Positions 38,832-58,110 of a DNA stretch of 64,000 nucleotides are shown one piece after another; the first letter of the stretch is position 1, and every line of letters starts with the position of its first letter. Source of the DNA: Methylosinus trichosporium OB3b (GTDB lineage: Bacteria; Pseudomonadota; Alphaproteobacteria; Rhizobiales; Beijerinckiaceae); NCBI RefSeq assembly GCF_002752655.1, contig NZ_CP023737.1, forward strand, positions 1,550,001 through 1,614,000. Reading direction: 5' to 3'. Under the pieces are notes generated by a model. The model saw nothing but the letters and a program-made list of their open reading frames with translations. It made no database searches and had not been told where the DNA came from. The position numbers and the translations under genes were made by a program.

Positions 38832-38908
38832 GGCGGAGTAGCTCAGTCGGCTAGAGCAGAGGAATCATAATCCTTGTGTCGGGGGTTCGAGTCCCTCCTC
38901 CGCTACCA
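38832..38908 (+). tRNA. tRNA-Met(CAT), elongator
   Basis: A 77-base cloverleaf. GGCGGAG pairs with CTCCGCT (first pair G-T, as is usual for this tRNA in Rhizobiales), the D-arm is GCTCAGTCGGCTAGAGC, the anticodon loop ATCATAA holds CAT, the T-loop is TTCGAGT and the gene encodes the CCA end. Its 3' part is the attachment site of prophage 2, and the antisense strand encodes the last codons of the recombinase. Confidence 0.95.
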
Positions 38909-50340: not shown

Positions 50341-51042
50341 ATGAGCGAAGGTTCCCTGTGGAAGCAGGTCCAGGCGCTCGTCGCCGCCGGCCGCAGCAAT
50401 GCGGAGATACGGGCCGCGCTCCGCGCGCACATGTGCAAAGAGACGCTGGACACCTATCTCAGCGCGGCACGGTCGCAGCGCGGCAAGCAGGCAGCGCGCG
50501 CGACGCCGGAATGGCCGGATGCGCGCATCGCGACGGTCGCCAGGCTGTGGGCGGAGGGCTGCACGGCGGCGCAGATCGCCGCTGAGATCGGCGGCGGGAT
50601 CACGCGCTCGGCGGTGATCGGCAAGGTTCATCGGCTCGGCTTGCCGGCGCGCGAGCGGGGAGTGCGGACGAAAGCGGCGCGCGCCGCGATCATCACGCCG
50701 CCACCGGCGCAAGCGGTGAAACGGCCGGCAGAGAAGGCGGCGCCGGTCGTCGTCGCGAGGCCCGCGCCCGTTCCCGCGCTGGCGCCGCCGGTCGACTGTG
50801 GGGAGACGGCGCTGGTCGCGTCGATCCTCGATCTGGTCGAGGGGCAATGCAGATGGCCGCTCGCGGCCGGGTTTTGCGGGCGGCCGAGCGCCGGCGGCAA
50901 GTCCTATTGCGCGCATCATGCGTTGCGATCGGTCAACCCGCGCGGGCCCATGCGGCCGCCGCGCGCGATCAGCGAAGGTCGCAAGAGCGAGCCGCGCGAG
51001 CGCATCGCCGATTGCATCGAAATGTTCGAGGCGGCGCGGTGA
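50341..51042 (+). CDS. GcrA-family cell-cycle regulator homologue
   Basis: A 233-residue protein. Residues about 55-100 are the GcrA DNA-binding domain: EWPDARIATVARLWAEGCTA, then AQIAAEIGGGITRSAVIGKV and HRLGL. The carboxyl part has the GcrA zinc-ribbon-like box CRWPLAAGFCGRPSAGGKSY then CAHHA. GcrA binds sigma-70 RNA polymerase at methylated GANTC sites in alphaproteobacteria. An extra N-terminal 55 residues (SLWKQVQALVAAGRSNAEIR) are not in host GcrA. It may redirect host transcription. Confidence 0.88.
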   Translation: MSEGSLWKQVQALVAAGRSNAEIRAALRAHMCKETLDTYLSAARSQRGKQAARATPEWPDARIATVARLWAEGCTAAQIAAEIGGGITRSAVIGKVHRLGLPARERGVRTKAARAAIITPPPAQAVKRPAEKAAPVVVARPAPVPALAPPVDCGETALVASILDLVEGQCRWPLAAGFCGRPSAGGKSYCAHHALRSVNPRGPMRPPRAISEGRKSEPRERIADCIEMFEAAR

Positions 51043-51265: not shown

Positions 51266-52420
51266 ATGCGGCTGAACGATGCGCAGATCGCCGATGTGAA
51301 GGCCCGGGTCGATCTCGGCGCGCTGGCGCGCGAGCTCGGCGCTGGACTGCGCAAGCAAGGACGAAAGCTCATCGGCTCCTGTCCGATCTGCGGCGGCGGG
51401 CGCTCGGCGCAGCGCTTCGAGGTGCAGGGCGACGGCTGGGTGTGCGCCGTCTGCCAGGACGGCGGCGACGCTATTCGCCTGCTGCAGCGCGCCACCGGCT
51501 GTGATTTCCGCGCCGCGGTGGAGAGGCTCGGCGGCGCGCGCGAATTGAGCGACGCCGAGCGCGCCGAGCTGGAGCAGCGCGCGCGGGAGCGGGAGGAAAA
51601 GCGCGAGCGCGAGGCGCAGCGCTATCGCGAGCGCGAGATCGCCGCCGTGCGGCGCTTGTGGGAGGGCGCGGCGCGCGCGCCTTTCGATCTCGTCGCCGCC
51701 TATCTGCAATGGCGGCGCTGTCTCGCGCCGGCCTCGGCGATGCTGCGCTGCGCGCCGGAACTCTGCTTCTTCGACGGCCAGGCGCCGGACGAGCGCGGGC
51801 GCATGGCGCCGCGCGTCGTGCATCGCGGCCCGGCCATGCTGGCGGCGATCGTCGACAATGCGGGCCAATTCTGCGGGCTGCATATGACCTTTCTGGCGCC
51901 CGGCGGCGCCGGCAAGGCGGAGATTTTCGAGCCCGAAACCGGCGAGGCGCTCATGCCGAAGAAATGCCGAGGCTCGGTGAAGGGCGGCCATATCGTGCTG
52001 CGCGCCGCCCAGGCGCCGCGGCGGCTGTTCATCGGCGAGGGAATCGAGACCGTGCTGTCGGTGGCGACGGCGCTGAAGGCGACGCGGCGGCTGCGCGTCG
52101 ATGACGCCTTCTGGTCGAGCGTCGATCTCGGCAATCTCGGCGGCGCGGCGGCCGAGACGATCGATCATCCGTTCTTGAAGCATGCGAATGGCCATCGTCA
52201 GCGCCTGCCGGGCCCGGAGCCCGATCGCGCGGCGCCGGCGATCGCCATTCCGGGCAGCGTCGAGGAGCTGGTGCTGCTCGGCGATGGCGACAGCGAGCGC
52301 GTGCTGACCGAGACGACGCTCGAGCGCGCGCGGCGCCGCTATGAGCGGCCTGGGCGCGTGATCCGCACGGCGTTCGCGCCCGAGGGGCAGGATTTCAACC
52401 ATGTGCTGATGGAGGGGTGA
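51266..52420 (+). CDS. CHC2/Toprim phage primase
   Basis: A 384-residue primase. The zinc finger is SCPICGGGRSAQRFEV with VCAVCQDGGDAIRLLQRA, in CHC2 style. A central DUF7146-type region (APASAMLRCAPELCFFDGQA) and a Toprim domain follow (RRLFIGEGIETVLSVATALK, then LVLLGDGDSERVLTET). It makes RNA primers. The ATG at 51266 is preceded by GAGGAGAGAGATC. A separate P4-type primase-helicase lies downstream. Confidence 0.88.
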   Translation: MRLNDAQIADVKARVDLGALARELGAGLRKQGRKLIGSCPICGGGRSAQRFEVQGDGWVCAVCQDGGDAIRLLQRATGCDFRAAVERLGGARELSDAERAELEQRAREREEKREREAQRYREREIAAVRRLWEGAARAPFDLVAAYLQWRRCLAPASAMLRCAPELCFFDGQAPDERGRMAPRVVHRGPAMLAAIVDNAGQFCGLHMTFLAPGGAGKAEIFEPETGEALMPKKCRGSVKGGHIVLRAAQAPRRLFIGEGIETVLSVATALKATRRLRVDDAFWSSVDLGNLGGAAAETIDHPFLKHANGHRQRLPGPEPDRAAPAIAIPGSVEELVLLGDGDSERVLTETTLERARRRYERPGRVIRTAFAPEGQDFNHVLMEG

Positions 52421-52943: not shown

Positions 52944-53638
52944 GCGGCCAGAACAGATCAACGGCTGTCATGCAGCGGCGCGCGAAGACAAAAGAGCCGC
53001 GACCCGACGACTCGTTCGACGCGTTCGACTATTATCCGACGCCTGCATGGGGCACGCGGGCGTTGTGTGAATGGCTTGAGGCAGAAGGGCTTGCCAGCCC
53101 CGGCCTTCAAGACGTCTGGGAGCCGGCCTGCGGCGAAGGGCATATGGCGAAGCCGCTCGGAGAATTTTTCCGTGAGGTTTATGCGGCCGATGTCTGTGCC
53201 CGTGGCTTTGGTGATGTCGACGATTTCCTGTGGCACTCAGACCGCCGCGCCGACTGGATAATCACCAATCCGCCGTTTCGGCTTGCGTCACAGTTTGCGA
53301 CGACGGCGTTCGACCGCGCGCGCTTCGGCGTCGCCATGCTCGTTCGAATCGCCTTCCTTGAAGGATCGGACAGATACAACAATCTGTTCGCAAAGCTTCC
53401 GCCTTCGCACATCGTGCAATTCGCCGAGCGCCTGCCGATGGTCAAAGGCTGGGTGGACCGCAACGCATCATCGGCGACTGCCTACACCTGGGTTGTCTGG
53501 CACAAGGCGTCAGGATCCTCAACGCGGTTCCATTGGCTCGCGCCATGCCGCAAGCGATTGGAGCGTGATTCCGATTATGCGTCTTCCGCCGGCAAATTCG
53601 ACGCATCGCAGCTAAGCGCGGGCGAGCCCGCGGCATGA
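52940..53638 (+). CDS. Adenine-type DNA methyltransferase (NPPF)
   Basis: A 232-residue protein. It has a SAM-binding region (LQDVWEPACGEGHMAKPLGE, motif I-like) and the catalytic motif in RADWIITNPPFRLASQFATT (NPPF), as in N6-adenine or N4-cytosine methyltransferases. YYPTPAWGTRALCEWLEAEG near the start is typical of phage members. Codon use is a little richer in A+T than its neighbours. Confidence 0.85.
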   Translation: MSGQNRSTAVMQRRAKTKEPRPDDSFDAFDYYPTPAWGTRALCEWLEAEGLASPGLQDVWEPACGEGHMAKPLGEFFREVYAADVCARGFGDVDDFLWHSDRRADWIITNPPFRLASQFATTAFDRARFGVAMLVRIAFLEGSDRYNNLFAKLPPSHIVQFAERLPMVKGWVDRNASSATAYTWVVWHKASGSSTRFHWLAPCRKRLERDSDYASSAGKFDASQLSAGEPAA

Positions 53639-55479
53639 CGACCGATCCCTACAAGCGCATCGCCGACGCTGTCGAGGGCGCGAGCCCGCAGCCCCTGCGC
53701 GCCGCTCCGCCGACGGCGGACGCCGATGACGCGAGCGATGGCGACGCCTGCGACGCGCTCGGGCCGTCGGACCAGGAGGCCGATGGCGTCGACATGCGCG
53801 TCGTCGAGCGCTGCGCCAAGCTCGATCAGTCCGACACCGACAATGGCAAGCGGTTGATCGAGCATTTCGGCGCCGATCTCGTCGTGATGGCGCAGGGCGG
53901 CGTCGAGGGCGGCGGCTGGCTCGGCTGGGAGGGGCGCTATTGGGACTTGGACGGCGGCGTCGCGCGCGCGAGCAAGATGGCGCAGATGATCGGCGGGCGC
54001 ATTGGCCTGGAGACGCGCTATCTGCAGCAGACGCCGGCCGAGGCGCGCGTGATCGAGGAAGCCGACAATCTCGCCGCCGATGACGAGAGCGATGGCGCCA
54101 AGGCCGTGCGCCGGGCCGCCGCGGCGGCGGAGAAGGCGCTGGAGAAACGGCGGCTGGCGCGCTGGCGCTTCGCCGTGAGCTCGAAAAATTCCGCGCGGCT
54201 CGTCGCCATGCTGAAGACGGCGGCGCCGCATCTGCGCCGCGAGCCCGGCGGCTTCAATTCGGAGTCGATGCTGATCGTGACGCAGAATGCGACGCTGCGC
54301 GTGATCGTCGAGGAGATCGGCGGGAAGAAAGAGGCGCGGCTCGACGTGCGGCGCGGCTTTGCGCGCGAGGATTATGCGACCGGACTCGTGCCCTGCGATT
54401 TCGATCTGATGGCGAAGGCGGCGAAGTGGGACGCCTTCCTGCTGCGCTGCCTGCCGAGCGCCGATATGCGCCGCACGGTGCGGCAATACGCCGGGCTCGG
54501 ACTCGTCGGCACGCTGCTGCAAAAGCTGATGTTTCATCATGGCTTCGGCGCCAATGGCAAAAGCGTGTTTCTCGCGGTGATTTCCGGCGTCATCGGCAAA
54601 TCCTATGGCGTGTCGCTGCCCAAGGAGACGATTCTCGGGCGCGGCGAACGCGGCGCCGGGCAGGCCTCGCCGGACATTGTGAGATTGTTCGGCAAGCGCT
54701 TCGTGCGCATCGACGAGCTGAAGGAGGACGAGTCGCTGCGCGAGGATCTCGTGAAGCGGCTCACCGGCGGCGACGAGATGGCGGTGCGCAATCTGTTCGA
54801 GGGCTATTTCGATTTCGCCAATCGGGCGACGCCGCATATGAGCGGCAACGGCTTTCCCAAGATCGACGGGACCGACAATGGCATCTGGCGGCGCATGCTC
54901 GTCGTGCATTGGTCGGTGACGATTCCGCCGGAGGAGCGGCGCGAGTTCGACGGCTTCGTCGCCGAGCTGTTGGAGGAGCGCAGCGGCATATTGAATTGGC
55001 TGCTCGACGGCGTGCTCGATTATCTCGAGCATGGGCTGTTCATCGCGCCGGAGATCGCCGCGGCGACCTCGAAATATCAGGAGGAGATGAATCCGATCGG
55101 GGAATTCATCAAGGATTGCGTCGAGGCGCATGAGGGCGAGCGCGTGGCGGCGAGCACGGCGTATCAGGCCTATGTGAGCTGGTCCATGGCCAACGCCAAG
55201 CGGGCGAAGACGCAGACGGCGTTCGGCCGCGAGATGGCGAAACTGTTCAAGCGCGACAATGACCGGGCGCGCTCCTATCTCGACTGCCGCCTGCATGACG
55301 TGCCCGACCGGCCGGAGGAGCCGGGCAAGGCGCGCGCGGCGACGGATTATCCGGAGGGGTATGGGGATGAGCGGGCAAAGAGAACGCAACATGAAGCCGA
55401 TTCCGATCTCTGCGGCGGAACGTATCGCGAAGGAATGCGGCTACGATCAGGTGATCATTTACGCCCGGCGCGTCGGTGA
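53635..55479 (+). CDS. P4-family (D5-like) primase-helicase
   Basis: A 614-residue protein. A D5 N-terminal domain spans the middle, and an SF3/AAA+ helicase follows: MFHHGFGANGKSVFLAVISG is Walker A (GANGKS, near residue 303), RFVRIDELKEDESLREDLVK holds the Walker B region and ATPHMSGNGFPKIDGTDNGI is the SF3 C/sensor motif. Its carboxyl 35 residues (DERAKRTQHEADSDLCGGTY) overlap the next gene by about 90 bases. It would unwind phage DNA at the origin. Confidence 0.9.
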   Translation: MTTDPYKRIADAVEGASPQPLRAAPPTADADDASDGDACDALGPSDQEADGVDMRVVERCAKLDQSDTDNGKRLIEHFGADLVVMAQGGVEGGGWLGWEGRYWDLDGGVARASKMAQMIGGRIGLETRYLQQTPAEARVIEEADNLAADDESDGAKAVRRAAAAAEKALEKRRLARWRFAVSSKNSARLVAMLKTAAPHLRREPGGFNSESMLIVTQNATLRVIVEEIGGKKEARLDVRRGFAREDYATGLVPCDFDLMAKAAKWDAFLLRCLPSADMRRTVRQYAGLGLVGTLLQKLMFHHGFGANGKSVFLAVISGVIGKSYGVSLPKETILGRGERGAGQASPDIVRLFGKRFVRIDELKEDESLREDLVKRLTGGDEMAVRNLFEGYFDFANRATPHMSGNGFPKIDGTDNGIWRRMLVVHWSVTIPPEERREFDGFVAELLEERSGILNWLLDGVLDYLEHGLFIAPEIAAATSKYQEEMNPIGEFIKDCVEAHEGERVAASTAYQAYVSWSMANAKRAKTQTAFGREMAKLFKRDNDRARSYLDCRLHDVPDRPEEPGKARAATDYPEGYGDERAKRTQHEADSDLCGGTYREGMRLRSGDHLRPARR

Positions 55480-55609: not shown

Positions 55610-56709
55610 CGCGCACTCGCGGGCCTACCGTCATCGATCTCTTTTGCGGCGGCGCCGGCGGCTGGTCGCTCGGCCTCCATCGCGCCGGCTATCGCACGGT
55701 TGCGGCCTGCGAGGCCGATCCGTGGCGGCGCGCCATGTTCGCGGCGAATTTCCCCGGCGTGAGGATGTATGACGATGTTCGAGAGCTCACCGCAGGGCGA
55801 ATTATTTCCGATCTCGGATATCGTCCCGACCTGCTCGTCGGAAGCCCGCCCTGCCAGGACGCGAGCGCAGCCAACACGCGCGGCCAGGGAGTCGACGGCG
55901 AGCGCACCGGGCTCTTCTTCCCGACCATCCGCCTCGTCGGAGATCTGCGACCTCGTTGGGTCGCTCTTGAAAATGTCCCTCGCCTCCGAACTCGCGGCGC
56001 AGACAGAGTGCTCGGCGCATTGGAGGAGATCGGATACTCCGCTTGGCCGTTCGTGGTGGGTGCTCACCATGTCCGCGCCAATCACAAACGAGAGCGAGTG
56101 TGGATCATTGCTTTCGACCCCGCGCAAATCGGACATGGCGGCGGGGGGGCATGGCGATACTGGCCGCATGGGAACGGTGCGGCACATGCTGCACCAGGCG
56201 ATGCTGCCGACGCCGACGAAGTCGGACGGCGGAGCCGAGCCGCCGGGAGTGACAGGGCGGAAGCTGAGAACCTATCTCGCCACGCCGGCGAAGCGGGATT
56301 TCCGCTCGGCGAAGGCGTCGGAACAAACGATGCGTGGCAATGCGCGGCCGCTGAACGAGCATCTGGCCAACGCCGAGATGATGCTCACCCCGACGAAGAC
56401 GGGCAATCTCACAGCGCCGTCGATGTTGAAATGGGCGGGCGCGAGGGCGCTGGCGAAGATGCTGGCGAGCCATGGTCTCACTGGAACGGCGGCCTTGCCC
56501 ATCACCTACGGCTGGATCATGGGCTATCCACCGAGCTGGCTGCTGCGTCCGGCGATCGGGCAAGCCCTCTCCATGGCCTCGCGGGCCGCATCGTCGCCGC
56601 CTATGGCGACGCCGTCGTGCCGCAAATCCCGGAAGCCATAGGCCGGGCCATTCGTCGCGTCGAGGCGGCGGTGGCGGCGGCCCGCAGCCCGATAGAGGAG
56701 CCGCCATGA
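55606..56709 (+). CDS. Phage C5-cytosine DNA methyltransferase
   Basis: A 367-residue enzyme. Motif I is TVIDLFCGGAGGWSLGLHRA, the catalytic Cys is in LLVGSPPCQDASAANTRG, ENV is in WVALENVPRLRTRG and motif VIII is NHKRERVWIIAFD. Late motif X appears as AYGDAVVPQIPEAIGRAI, with Asp in place of the usual Asn. The middle (about residues 185-300) is low-complexity and acidic, and here a second frame is also open. Confidence 0.85.
   Translation: MTRTRGPTVIDLFCGGAGGWSLGLHRAGYRTVAACEADPWRRAMFAANFPGVRMYDDVRELTAGRIISDLGYRPDLLVGSPPCQDASAANTRGQGVDGERTGLFFPTIRLVGDLRPRWVALENVPRLRTRGADRVLGALEEIGYSAWPFVVGAHHVRANHKRERVWIIAFDPAQIGHGGGGAWRYWPHGNGAAHAAPGDAADADEVGRRSRAAGSDRAEAENLSRHAGEAGFPLGEGVGTNDAWQCAAAERASGQRRDDAHPDEDGQSHSAVDVEMGGREGAGEDAGEPWSHWNGGLAHHLRLDHGLSTELAAASGDRASPLHGLAGRIVAAYGDAVVPQIPEAIGRAIRRVEAAVAAARSPIEEPP
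55769..56641 (+). CDS. Second open frame overlapping the C5 methyltransferase
   Basis: A 290-residue frame, +1 relative to the methyltransferase, starting ATG 55769 (MTMFESSPQGELFPISDIVP). It contains repeated 'LxTPxKSD' patterns (SLLSTPRKSDMAAGGHG; MLPTPTKSDGGAEPPGV; LATPAKRDFRSAK) and YGWIMGYPPSWLLRP, which resemble proteins often annotated beside phage methyltransferases. Its composition is protein-like throughout. Whether it is expressed is unknown; alternatives are an unusual shadow or a frameshifted relic. Confidence 0.5.
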   Translation: MTMFESSPQGELFPISDIVPTCSSEARPARTRAQPTRAARESTASAPGSSSRPSASSEICDLVGSLLKMSLASELAAQTECSAHWRRSDTPLGRSWWVLTMSAPITNESECGSLLSTPRKSDMAAGGHGDTGRMGTVRHMLHQAMLPTPTKSDGGAEPPGVTGRKLRTYLATPAKRDFRSAKASEQTMRGNARPLNEHLANAEMMLTPTKTGNLTAPSMLKWAGARALAKMLASHGLTGTAALPITYGWIMGYPPSWLLRPAIGQALSMASRAASSPPMATPSCRKSRKP

Positions 56710-56860
56710 CGGCCGACCTATGACGCGCGCTCGCGGGCCGCCGGCGTCGCCAAACGTCGCAACTCTCATCTTCGCTGCCCTCGCGTCGCCTTCCGTGGCG
56801 CGAAACGCTTTCCTGCGCGCCGAAAAGCCCGTAGCCCGTTTGGATGGCCGGCGGGAAATC

Positions 56861-57147
56861 TGCAAGGGTTGCAAGAGTTGCGCAAGAGTTCGAAACAAAC
56901 TGTCGCAGGTGTTTTTGCGTGATACGGCAATAGGTTATGAGAGGCGTGCAAGAGTTGCATGAGTTTTCCTCGCGTAATGTATGAAACATTGGGGTTCGGG
57001 GAGTGCTCTAAAAATGTTTGCTCATACGTTATGTGCGTAGAAAACTCAGGCAACTCTTGCAAATGATGAAAAATAACAATGAATATATAGGCTTGTAATC
57101 TGCAATGGTTTTGAACAAACCATTGCGCAACCCGTGCAACCCTTGCA
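56861..57147. repeat. Nested inverted-repeat element, candidate origin or regulatory dyad
   Basis: AT-rich and symmetrical. Outer arms: TGCAAGGGTTGCA at 56861-56873 and its reverse complement at 57135-57147, with the matches extending over about 30 bases. Inner arms: TGCAAGAGTTGCATGAGTTT (starting 56947) and its near-exact inverse ending 57061, matching for 21 of 22 bases and imperfectly for about 45, with a loop near 56991-57012. The apex is AT-rich. It lies between the replication and packaging modules. No gene is seen here other than poor candidates. Confidence 0.7.
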
Positions 57148-57162
57148 AAACAGGAACAAAGC

Positions 57163-58110
57163 ATGAGCGGGACGAAGGATCGGCGCGCGGCGGTGATCGC
57201 TCTGGCGCGGGGGTGGGGTGGGCAGGGCGTGGCGGCGCGGCCCAAGGCGCGCGAGCGGCGCGGGATCGAGGACTTGCTCGCCTGGGCCTATCTGCGCGAG
57301 CTGCCGAAAACGGCGATGCGGCGGACGGATGGCCCAAAACTCTGGCGCAGCGGGTGGATGAAGGTCGAGGAATGGCTCGAGGAGCTGTCTTTGGCGGGAC
57401 CGAACGAAAATCGCTTCGGCGTCGTCCCGGATTTGAGCGTGATGACGGCGCCGCACGAGGACGCGCTGCGCGTGCATGAGGCCGTGTGCCGGCTGGACGA
57501 GCTCGACATCGGCGTGCCGGACGATTGGTCGCCCTGCGCCGAGCTCGGCGATCTCGACGGGCATGGCGCGGCTCTGCCGGGGCTGGCGCTGGCGCGGCTC
57601 TGCGTGACCGGGGCGGATGGCGTGCCGCGGCTGCGGCGCTCGGCGCGGGCGCTGGTGTTTCGTCATGCGATTCTCGGCGGGTGCCCCGATTGGGAGATCG
57701 ATCCGCCACAGGTGCGGGTGGTGAGCGAATACGGCCGGCCGAAGTGGTTTCTGCGCGAGGTGATGTGGTTCGACGGGGTGGATGGGCAGGTCGCGCACGA
57801 GGTGGAGATCGACGGCTGCGACAAGTGGGGGCATGCGCGGCCAGGCGCTTATCAGAAAACCTATCTCGACCCTGATCCGGTCGATGGCGTCGTCGGGCGC
57901 GGCGAGTATGAAATCTGGCGCTGGGCGCTCGATTTGCTGGTGGAGGATTTGGCGGGGCTGCTCGTCGATTTCGAGGCCGTGGCGAGTGATCGGCCTATGC
58001 GGCCCTGGGTGGAGGCGGCGCCGCGCAAGGGGCGGACGCTACGCGATCTACGGCAAGATGCCGGGTGGCAGATTCGCGGGGATGCGCGACGGGCGAAAGG
58101 GCGACTCTAG
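57163..58110 (+). CDS. Phage hypothetical protein before packaging genes
   Basis: A 315-residue protein starting MSGTKDRRAAVIALARGWGG, Trp-rich (LWRSGWMKVEEWLEELSLAG), with WFLREVMWFDGVDGQVAHEV and a conserved-looking DGCDKWGHARPGAYQKTYLD. Similar proteins precede Nu1/GpA-type genes in Rhizobiales phages. Function unknown. Followed by a strong terminator. Confidence 0.68.
   Translation: MSGTKDRRAAVIALARGWGGQGVAARPKARERRGIEDLLAWAYLRELPKTAMRRTDGPKLWRSGWMKVEEWLEELSLAGPNENRFGVVPDLSVMTAPHEDALRVHEAVCRLDELDIGVPDDWSPCAELGDLDGHGAALPGLALARLCVTGADGVPRLRRSARALVFRHAILGGCPDWEIDPPQVRVVSEYGRPKWFLREVMWFDGVDGQVAHEVEIDGCDKWGHARPGAYQKTYLDPDPVDGVVGRGEYEIWRWALDLLVEDLAGLLVDFEAVASDRPMRPWVEAAPRKGRTLRDLRQDAGWQIRGDARRAKGRL

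Follow-up and report, generated by a model that had tools for sequence, protein, structure and literature searches.

Satellite phage P4 encodes the alpha protein, a helicase of the same broad family as the D5-type helicase discussed below, which has a C-terminal, origin-binding winged helix and acts with iterons. P4 has two separate sites, ori and crr, and its primase and helicase are fused. Closer to our locus are the origins of SaPI/PICI elements, whose initiator reads its iterons by a C-terminal domain according to the accessible part of PMC7581432. The same part of that source describes a putative origin of SCCmec, where the isolated C-terminal domain of Cch2, a D5-related helicase, binds direct repeats downstream of its gene, while the available portion of PMC7145576 deals with an unrelated RepA_N iteron origin. 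An earlier sequence-only reading of our locus knew of no described element with this layout. This holds only in part, since PICI origins, as described in the accessible sections of PMC6092414, and the origin of phage A2 come close. A literature search, with subscription journals largely outside its coverage, found no publication on this phage element itself.

The window analysed here, a stretch of 64,000 nucleotides (64 kb) from Methylosinus trichosporium OB3b, is part of a predicted provirus with its own terminase genes. The IMG/VR provirus with this region has 49,405 bases and, if collinear, starts near window position 38,864 and extends past the window end. The element at 56861-57147 is, to judge from its sequence organization, very probably the replication origin of a temperate phage, which would resemble SaPI/PICI origins and be opened by the phage's own D5 helicase. 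Three features of the sequence suggest this: the nested and opposed iteron arrays with their core, the one-sided AT-rich spacer, and the position downstream of the D5 gene.

The two nested dyads of the sequence-only reading are real and prominent in the window. The outer arms (56861-56908 and 57100-57147) are 75% complementary over 48 nt, with 26 of 30 positions complementary at their outer ends, and the inner arms (56947-56973 and 57035-57061) are 89% complementary over 27 nt. A listing of inverted pairs across the 64 kb, with arms of 25 nt or longer separated by no more than 400 nt, has 19 entries, of which these two are the first and third. The low-G+C patch was also borne out: the element has 43.2% G+C compared to 66.4% for the window and falls within the lowest 0.14% of 287-bp stretches. 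The shared unit indeed occurs in tandem, but its proposed length of 13 bases had to be revised to a 9-bp iteron, GCAAGRGTT, of which the element holds 11 copies with zero to two mismatches to GCAAGAGTT. All five exact matches to TGCAAGRGTTGC in the window are located within the element, and there are six genome-wide.

The iterons are arranged in tandem within groups and inverted between arms. On the plus strand, the outer-left group (56861..56890) has copies at 56862, 56871 and 56882, and the inner-left group (56948..56965) has copies at 56948 and 56957. The core (56966..57042, 43% G+C) carries CGCGTAATGTATGA at its left, GGGGTTCGGGG in its middle and TCATACGTTATGTGCG at its right. Then follow the inverted inner-right group on the minus strand (57043..57060, copies at 57043, with two mismatches, and 57052), an AT-rich spacer of 41 bp with 22% G+C (57061..57101) and the outer-right group (57102..57146, minus strand), which is composed of a small hairpin, formed by a forward copy at 57102 and an inverted one at 57118, and of two more inverted copies (57129 and 57138).

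An AT-rich sequence of about 290 bp with inverted ends might also represent a MITE-type mobile repeat with terminal inverted repeats. However, the element is single-copy in its own genome, aside from self sub-matches and short hits, and its sole long match among 99 other genomes (G009, 90% identical) lies at the same gene position. We therefore rejected a mobile repeat, and the fixed layout beside helicase genes in relatives (see below) also leaves this explanation with a practically negligible probability. Three short hits were examined, in G095 and G096 (within long stretches reading as Cys-Asn-Pro-like coding repeats) and in G099 (apparently coding), and were taken as chance. The long arrays of this Cys-Asn-Pro-like kind, with chance iteron matches, stand at L017 and L033 in two genomes of the same order.

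Upstream of the element, the plus strand encodes a CHC2/Toprim primase (51266..52420) and the D5-type helicase P0002 (53635..55479; D5_N and Pox_D5), the proposed initiator. Its Pox_D5 winged-helix stretch (residues 483-539, 55081..55251, plus strand) is the candidate iteron reader. A search of PDB sequences aligned residues 271-521 of P0002 with a viral primase (1e-07), and the winged-helix profile gave weak matches only (best 0.045; 'DNA primase' 7ola, 0.12). A C5-methyltransferase gene is located between the helicase gene and the element in the window. On the other side, P0001 (57163..58110, plus strand) starts 16 bases after the element; this protein of phrog_9306 is of unknown function, has no Pfam match and gave no match below 0.5 against PDB sequences. 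P0001 is followed by the terminase small subunit and the gpA-type large subunit genes, which begin about 1.7 kb downstream of the element. We also observed that the C-terminal tail of the D5 frame is longer in the window (53635-55479) than in the corresponding IMG/VR sequence (L069:2472-4205). Moreover, the early region of the prophage contains a gene for a GcrA-family cell-cycle regulator (50341-51042), and such a gene is also annotated on the plasmid relative MesoLjLa5.

Profile A3 detected P0001 in four of 385 class-wide genomes, and a search with the single protein, which differs in query and count from the profile search, detected it in 17 of 297 genomes of the order, the own genome being included both times. 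Around P0001 relatives, we pooled 66 viral-contig, 10 genome-contig and 8 whole-genome loci together with AmM-1, RR1-A and the window, and the resulting 87 loci were reduced to 70 by removal of near-duplicates. The relatives thus include isolated phages, AmM-1 and RR1-A. In the inspected stretches of AmM-1 (L146/L061), the annotation includes a ParA-like gene and lacks an integrase, so this may be a phage-plasmid. Left out of the pool were L049/L060 (one locus), L053, L054 and L058, which also match P0001; their short flanks gave no D5 hit, and no upstream element was seen by eye at L053, L054, L058 and L060. L066-L068 also stand outside the counts.

For each locus, a layout score was compared with those of 15 Markov shuffles. 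The layout passed this test at 47 of 48 D5 loci and at all ten loci with a second type of helicase (57/58 together), in some cases narrowly (e.g. L135, 6.20 vs. 6.00), and at the failing D5 locus, L124, arms are present under another scoring. Four of the ten second-type helicases are named, all with DUF5906; the second-type helicases have phrog_1156 in common with P0002, and a direct profile comparison aligned both types poorly. The layout is found within 900 bp before P0001 in 57/58 helicase loci. Neither helicase was detected in 12 loci, three of which pass (L057, L075 and L094, whose upstream sequence is in each case shorter than 1.2 kb) and nine of which fail, three of them also short upstream. 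When only loci with 2.5 kb or more of upstream sequence are considered, the layout passes in 47 of the 48 that encode a D5 or DUF5906 helicase and in none of the six in which neither was detected (Fisher p 2.7e-7). Lambda O-like initiators are encoded by two of the latter, L076 and L098. Conservation in related prophages and phages, which the sequence-only reading had named as a test, was thus found for the layout, kept in 57/58 helicase loci, while the word changes. Many relatives follow the same plan with other words, such as GCGAGGGTT, GGGAGGCTA, GGACAGCTA, TAGACAGTT, GTAGAGGGT, GGCGGGGAT, TGTCCAACC and more. Scans of whole phages were swamped by G+C-rich self-complementary words, as was that of the window, and are uninformative on the absence of the layout in PPF1 and yong2.

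The anatomy of the element was compared in 47 loci with clear arrays, leaving out L121, whose word is uncertain, and L128. Mean G+C was 33% in the right spacer (the empty spacer of L135 counted as zero), 47% in the left spacer, 50% in the core and 66% in the loci. The right spacer lies at least 0.15 below the G+C of its locus in 44 of 46 loci (L135, with no spacer by script, left out). In the first 40 nt of the core, alternating purine-pyrimidine runs have a mean length of 13.0 nt vs. 5.7 in shuffled sequences and reach at least 10 nt in 36/47 loci; the last 40 nt show weaker alternation (8.1 vs. 5.7; at least 10 in 14/47). These alternating tracts sit immediately inside the inner-left iterons. 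A GGGGTTCGGGG-like pair of G-tracts was observed in 26 of 39 D5 cores using a loose pattern and in two of eight cores of the second type. A conserved TTTCAA motif in the spacer seemed real by eye and was dropped after it turned up in only 5 and 9 of 48.

Outside the pooled set, nine further stretches were scored against 50 shuffles each. Six of them pass, namely those of phages A2, RcapNL and Pthi1 (Paracoccus) and of phage-like plasmids from Rhizobium rhizoryzae, Mesorhizobium sp. L-2-11 and Phaeobacter inhibens. The sequence of Lactobacillus phage A2 is a rep_origin annotated by its depositors, and it scored 6.20 against a 50-shuffle maximum of 3.70. The passing plasmids are circular, and pP88_h of P. 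inhibens also carries repA and repB. The three that fail are RcCronus and R4C, where the repeats after D5 follow a different arrangement, and a Methylobacterium currus plasmid, whose element fails by the general score (4.10 vs. 4.45). On this plasmid of 46 kb, the layout is recognised by eye, and six of 19 near-matches to GCGAGGGTT cluster in the 272 bp that follow the D5 gene and keep the order of the family; only this clustering is notable, as the total is not above chance (19 vs. 16.5 expected). Its gene table, which is incomplete, lists no phage structural genes, P0001 or terminase, and ten of its ORFs, D5 included, revealed no other replication family. The 46-kb plasmid (L148, NZ_CP089299) combines the D5 replicon with ParA, an annotated type I-E CRISPR-Cas system and a chromate efflux gene.

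With genes for the small and large terminase subunits downstream, the element could instead be a cos or pac site read by terminase. In line with this, the record of RcapNL annotates a 26-nt '3' cohesive overhang', with the same sequence at either end of the record, that lies inside the right AT-rich spacer of its element, whereas RcapNL is circularly permuted according to Table 3 in the accessible part of PMC8601537. The cohesive-overhang note in the record (L151, L155) and this entry contradict each other. RcCronus, for which the same part of PMC8601537 gives a 13-base 5' overhang, is similarly arranged, but both termini of its record lie immediately before terS, over 1.3 kb away from the repeats after D5 (those that failed the layout score), and a cos site is unlikely from these ends elsewhere. 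Furthermore, the layout is not tied to one terminase type: it comes with the gpA type (40 loci) and with the TerL_ATPase/TerL_nuclease type (10 tested of 11 loci, which have no gpA hit and long downstream sequence), and the M. currus plasmid does without an annotated terminase. Overall, we consider a packaging site very unlikely. By gene order, the genome ends of this phage are expected between about 58793 and 58879.

We analysed co-variation of the word with the helicase winged helix, the helicase core, P0001 and the terminase by Mantel correlations, which take no account of shared descent, for 47 D5 loci (L121 left out; words of L124, L128 and L062 set by hand). The word correlated with the winged helix (0.414, p 0.0005), and this held when the helicase core was controlled for (0.296, p 0.0005) and when P0001 was added as a second control (0.283, p 0.001). 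Its correlation with the core (0.306) fell to 0.047 (p 0.25) given the winged helix. An earlier run with 35 D5 loci (13 dropped because the domain boundary was unrecognised) yielded correlations of 0.466 (winged helix), 0.164 (core) and -0.034 (P0001). In the 28 gpA-terminase loci, core (0.428) and winged helix (0.399) correlate with the word about equally well, the terminase shows a weak correlation (0.119, p 0.048), and the winged helix retains 0.176 (p 0.024) once core, P0001 and terminase are accounted for. The ten DUF5906/second-type loci showed no significant co-variation. Two prophages of Stappia albiluteola (L107 and L108) illustrate the pattern, with a P0001 distance of 0.03, a word distance of 5/9 and a winged-helix distance of 0.88.

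RNA folding of the element was better than 100/100 shuffles on either strand (z -8.1 and -9.8), and so stable a predicted fold on both strands would suit a P0001 leader that acts as a structured RNA or RNA switch. Inverted DNA sites, or any long inverted repeat, give such folds on both strands as well. Against an RNA, the iterons also occur as direct tandem repeats, the word is kept in extra copies that have no pairing partner, no Rfam family reaches its gathering score in 56600-57400, and the word does not follow P0001 (-0.020, p 0.58 in the 47 D5 loci). Inner-arm mismatches in 48 loci lean weakly to the G-U type (33 vs. 20 of the A-C type, of 144). We regard an RNA element as extremely improbable. 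Iteron arrays can also serve regulation or partition, and ParA is present in some relatives, so that an operator or a centromere-like partition site for a repressor or ParB-like protein has to be considered. Such a site is highly improbable here, as presence of the element tracks the helicase type and its word the helicase winged helix. Among the phage origin, centromere-like site and structured RNA offered by the sequence-only reading, the origin is favoured, on the basis of layout conservation, the co-variation of word and winged helix, and the annotated rep_origin and plasmids. The GC-skew switch, also named there as a test, is absent: the skew does not change sign at the element.

For replication from this probable origin, oligomers of the D5 helicase would bind the iterons through their C-terminal winged helix and load on the two arms, facing each other. 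The AT-rich spacer (57061..57101) could be the melting site, and the CHC2/Toprim primase would supply primers. Replication may start upon prophage induction, or continuously in the plasmid relatives. As a tentative and rather doubtful extension, the element might belong to a class of modular origins shared by temperate phages and plasmids, in this data set mostly from Alphaproteobacteria, in which a fixed nested scaffold takes at least ten different 9-bp words that change in step with the winged helix while P0001 stays. Word and reader could then set replication incompatibility groups of co-resident prophages, and P0001 could be an origin accessory factor common to the D5 and DUF5906 branches.

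Compared with P4, the primase is here a separate gene of the CHC2/Toprim type. The putative SCCmec origin shares a D5-related helicase with repeats downstream of its gene; it differs by iterons of 5 nt, three of which form the binding site, and replication was not shown in vivo there according to the accessible part of PMC7581432. The A2 rep_origin overlaps the end of, and then follows, a D5-family primase gene, and its outer and inner iterons are likewise inverted about a core. By eye, its 10-bp word, ACGGGAGGAT, and its TATA-rich core are different. The SaPI/PICI pri-rep-ori arrangement has the origin directly 3' of the replication initiator gene, and our element likewise lies downstream of D5, with a methyltransferase gene between them in the window; an initiator C-terminal domain as iteron reader is suggested here by co-variation. 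Moreover, our element has four iteron groups in two nested dyads, and its most AT-rich part is not the core but lies off-centre, between the inner-right and outer-right groups. Its carrier is a temperate phage or plasmid instead of a satellite, and P0001 follows. The element would thus function in the manner of a SaPI/PICI origin without belonging to a PICI, in view of its own terminase genes, the predicted provirus and the isolated phages among its relatives.
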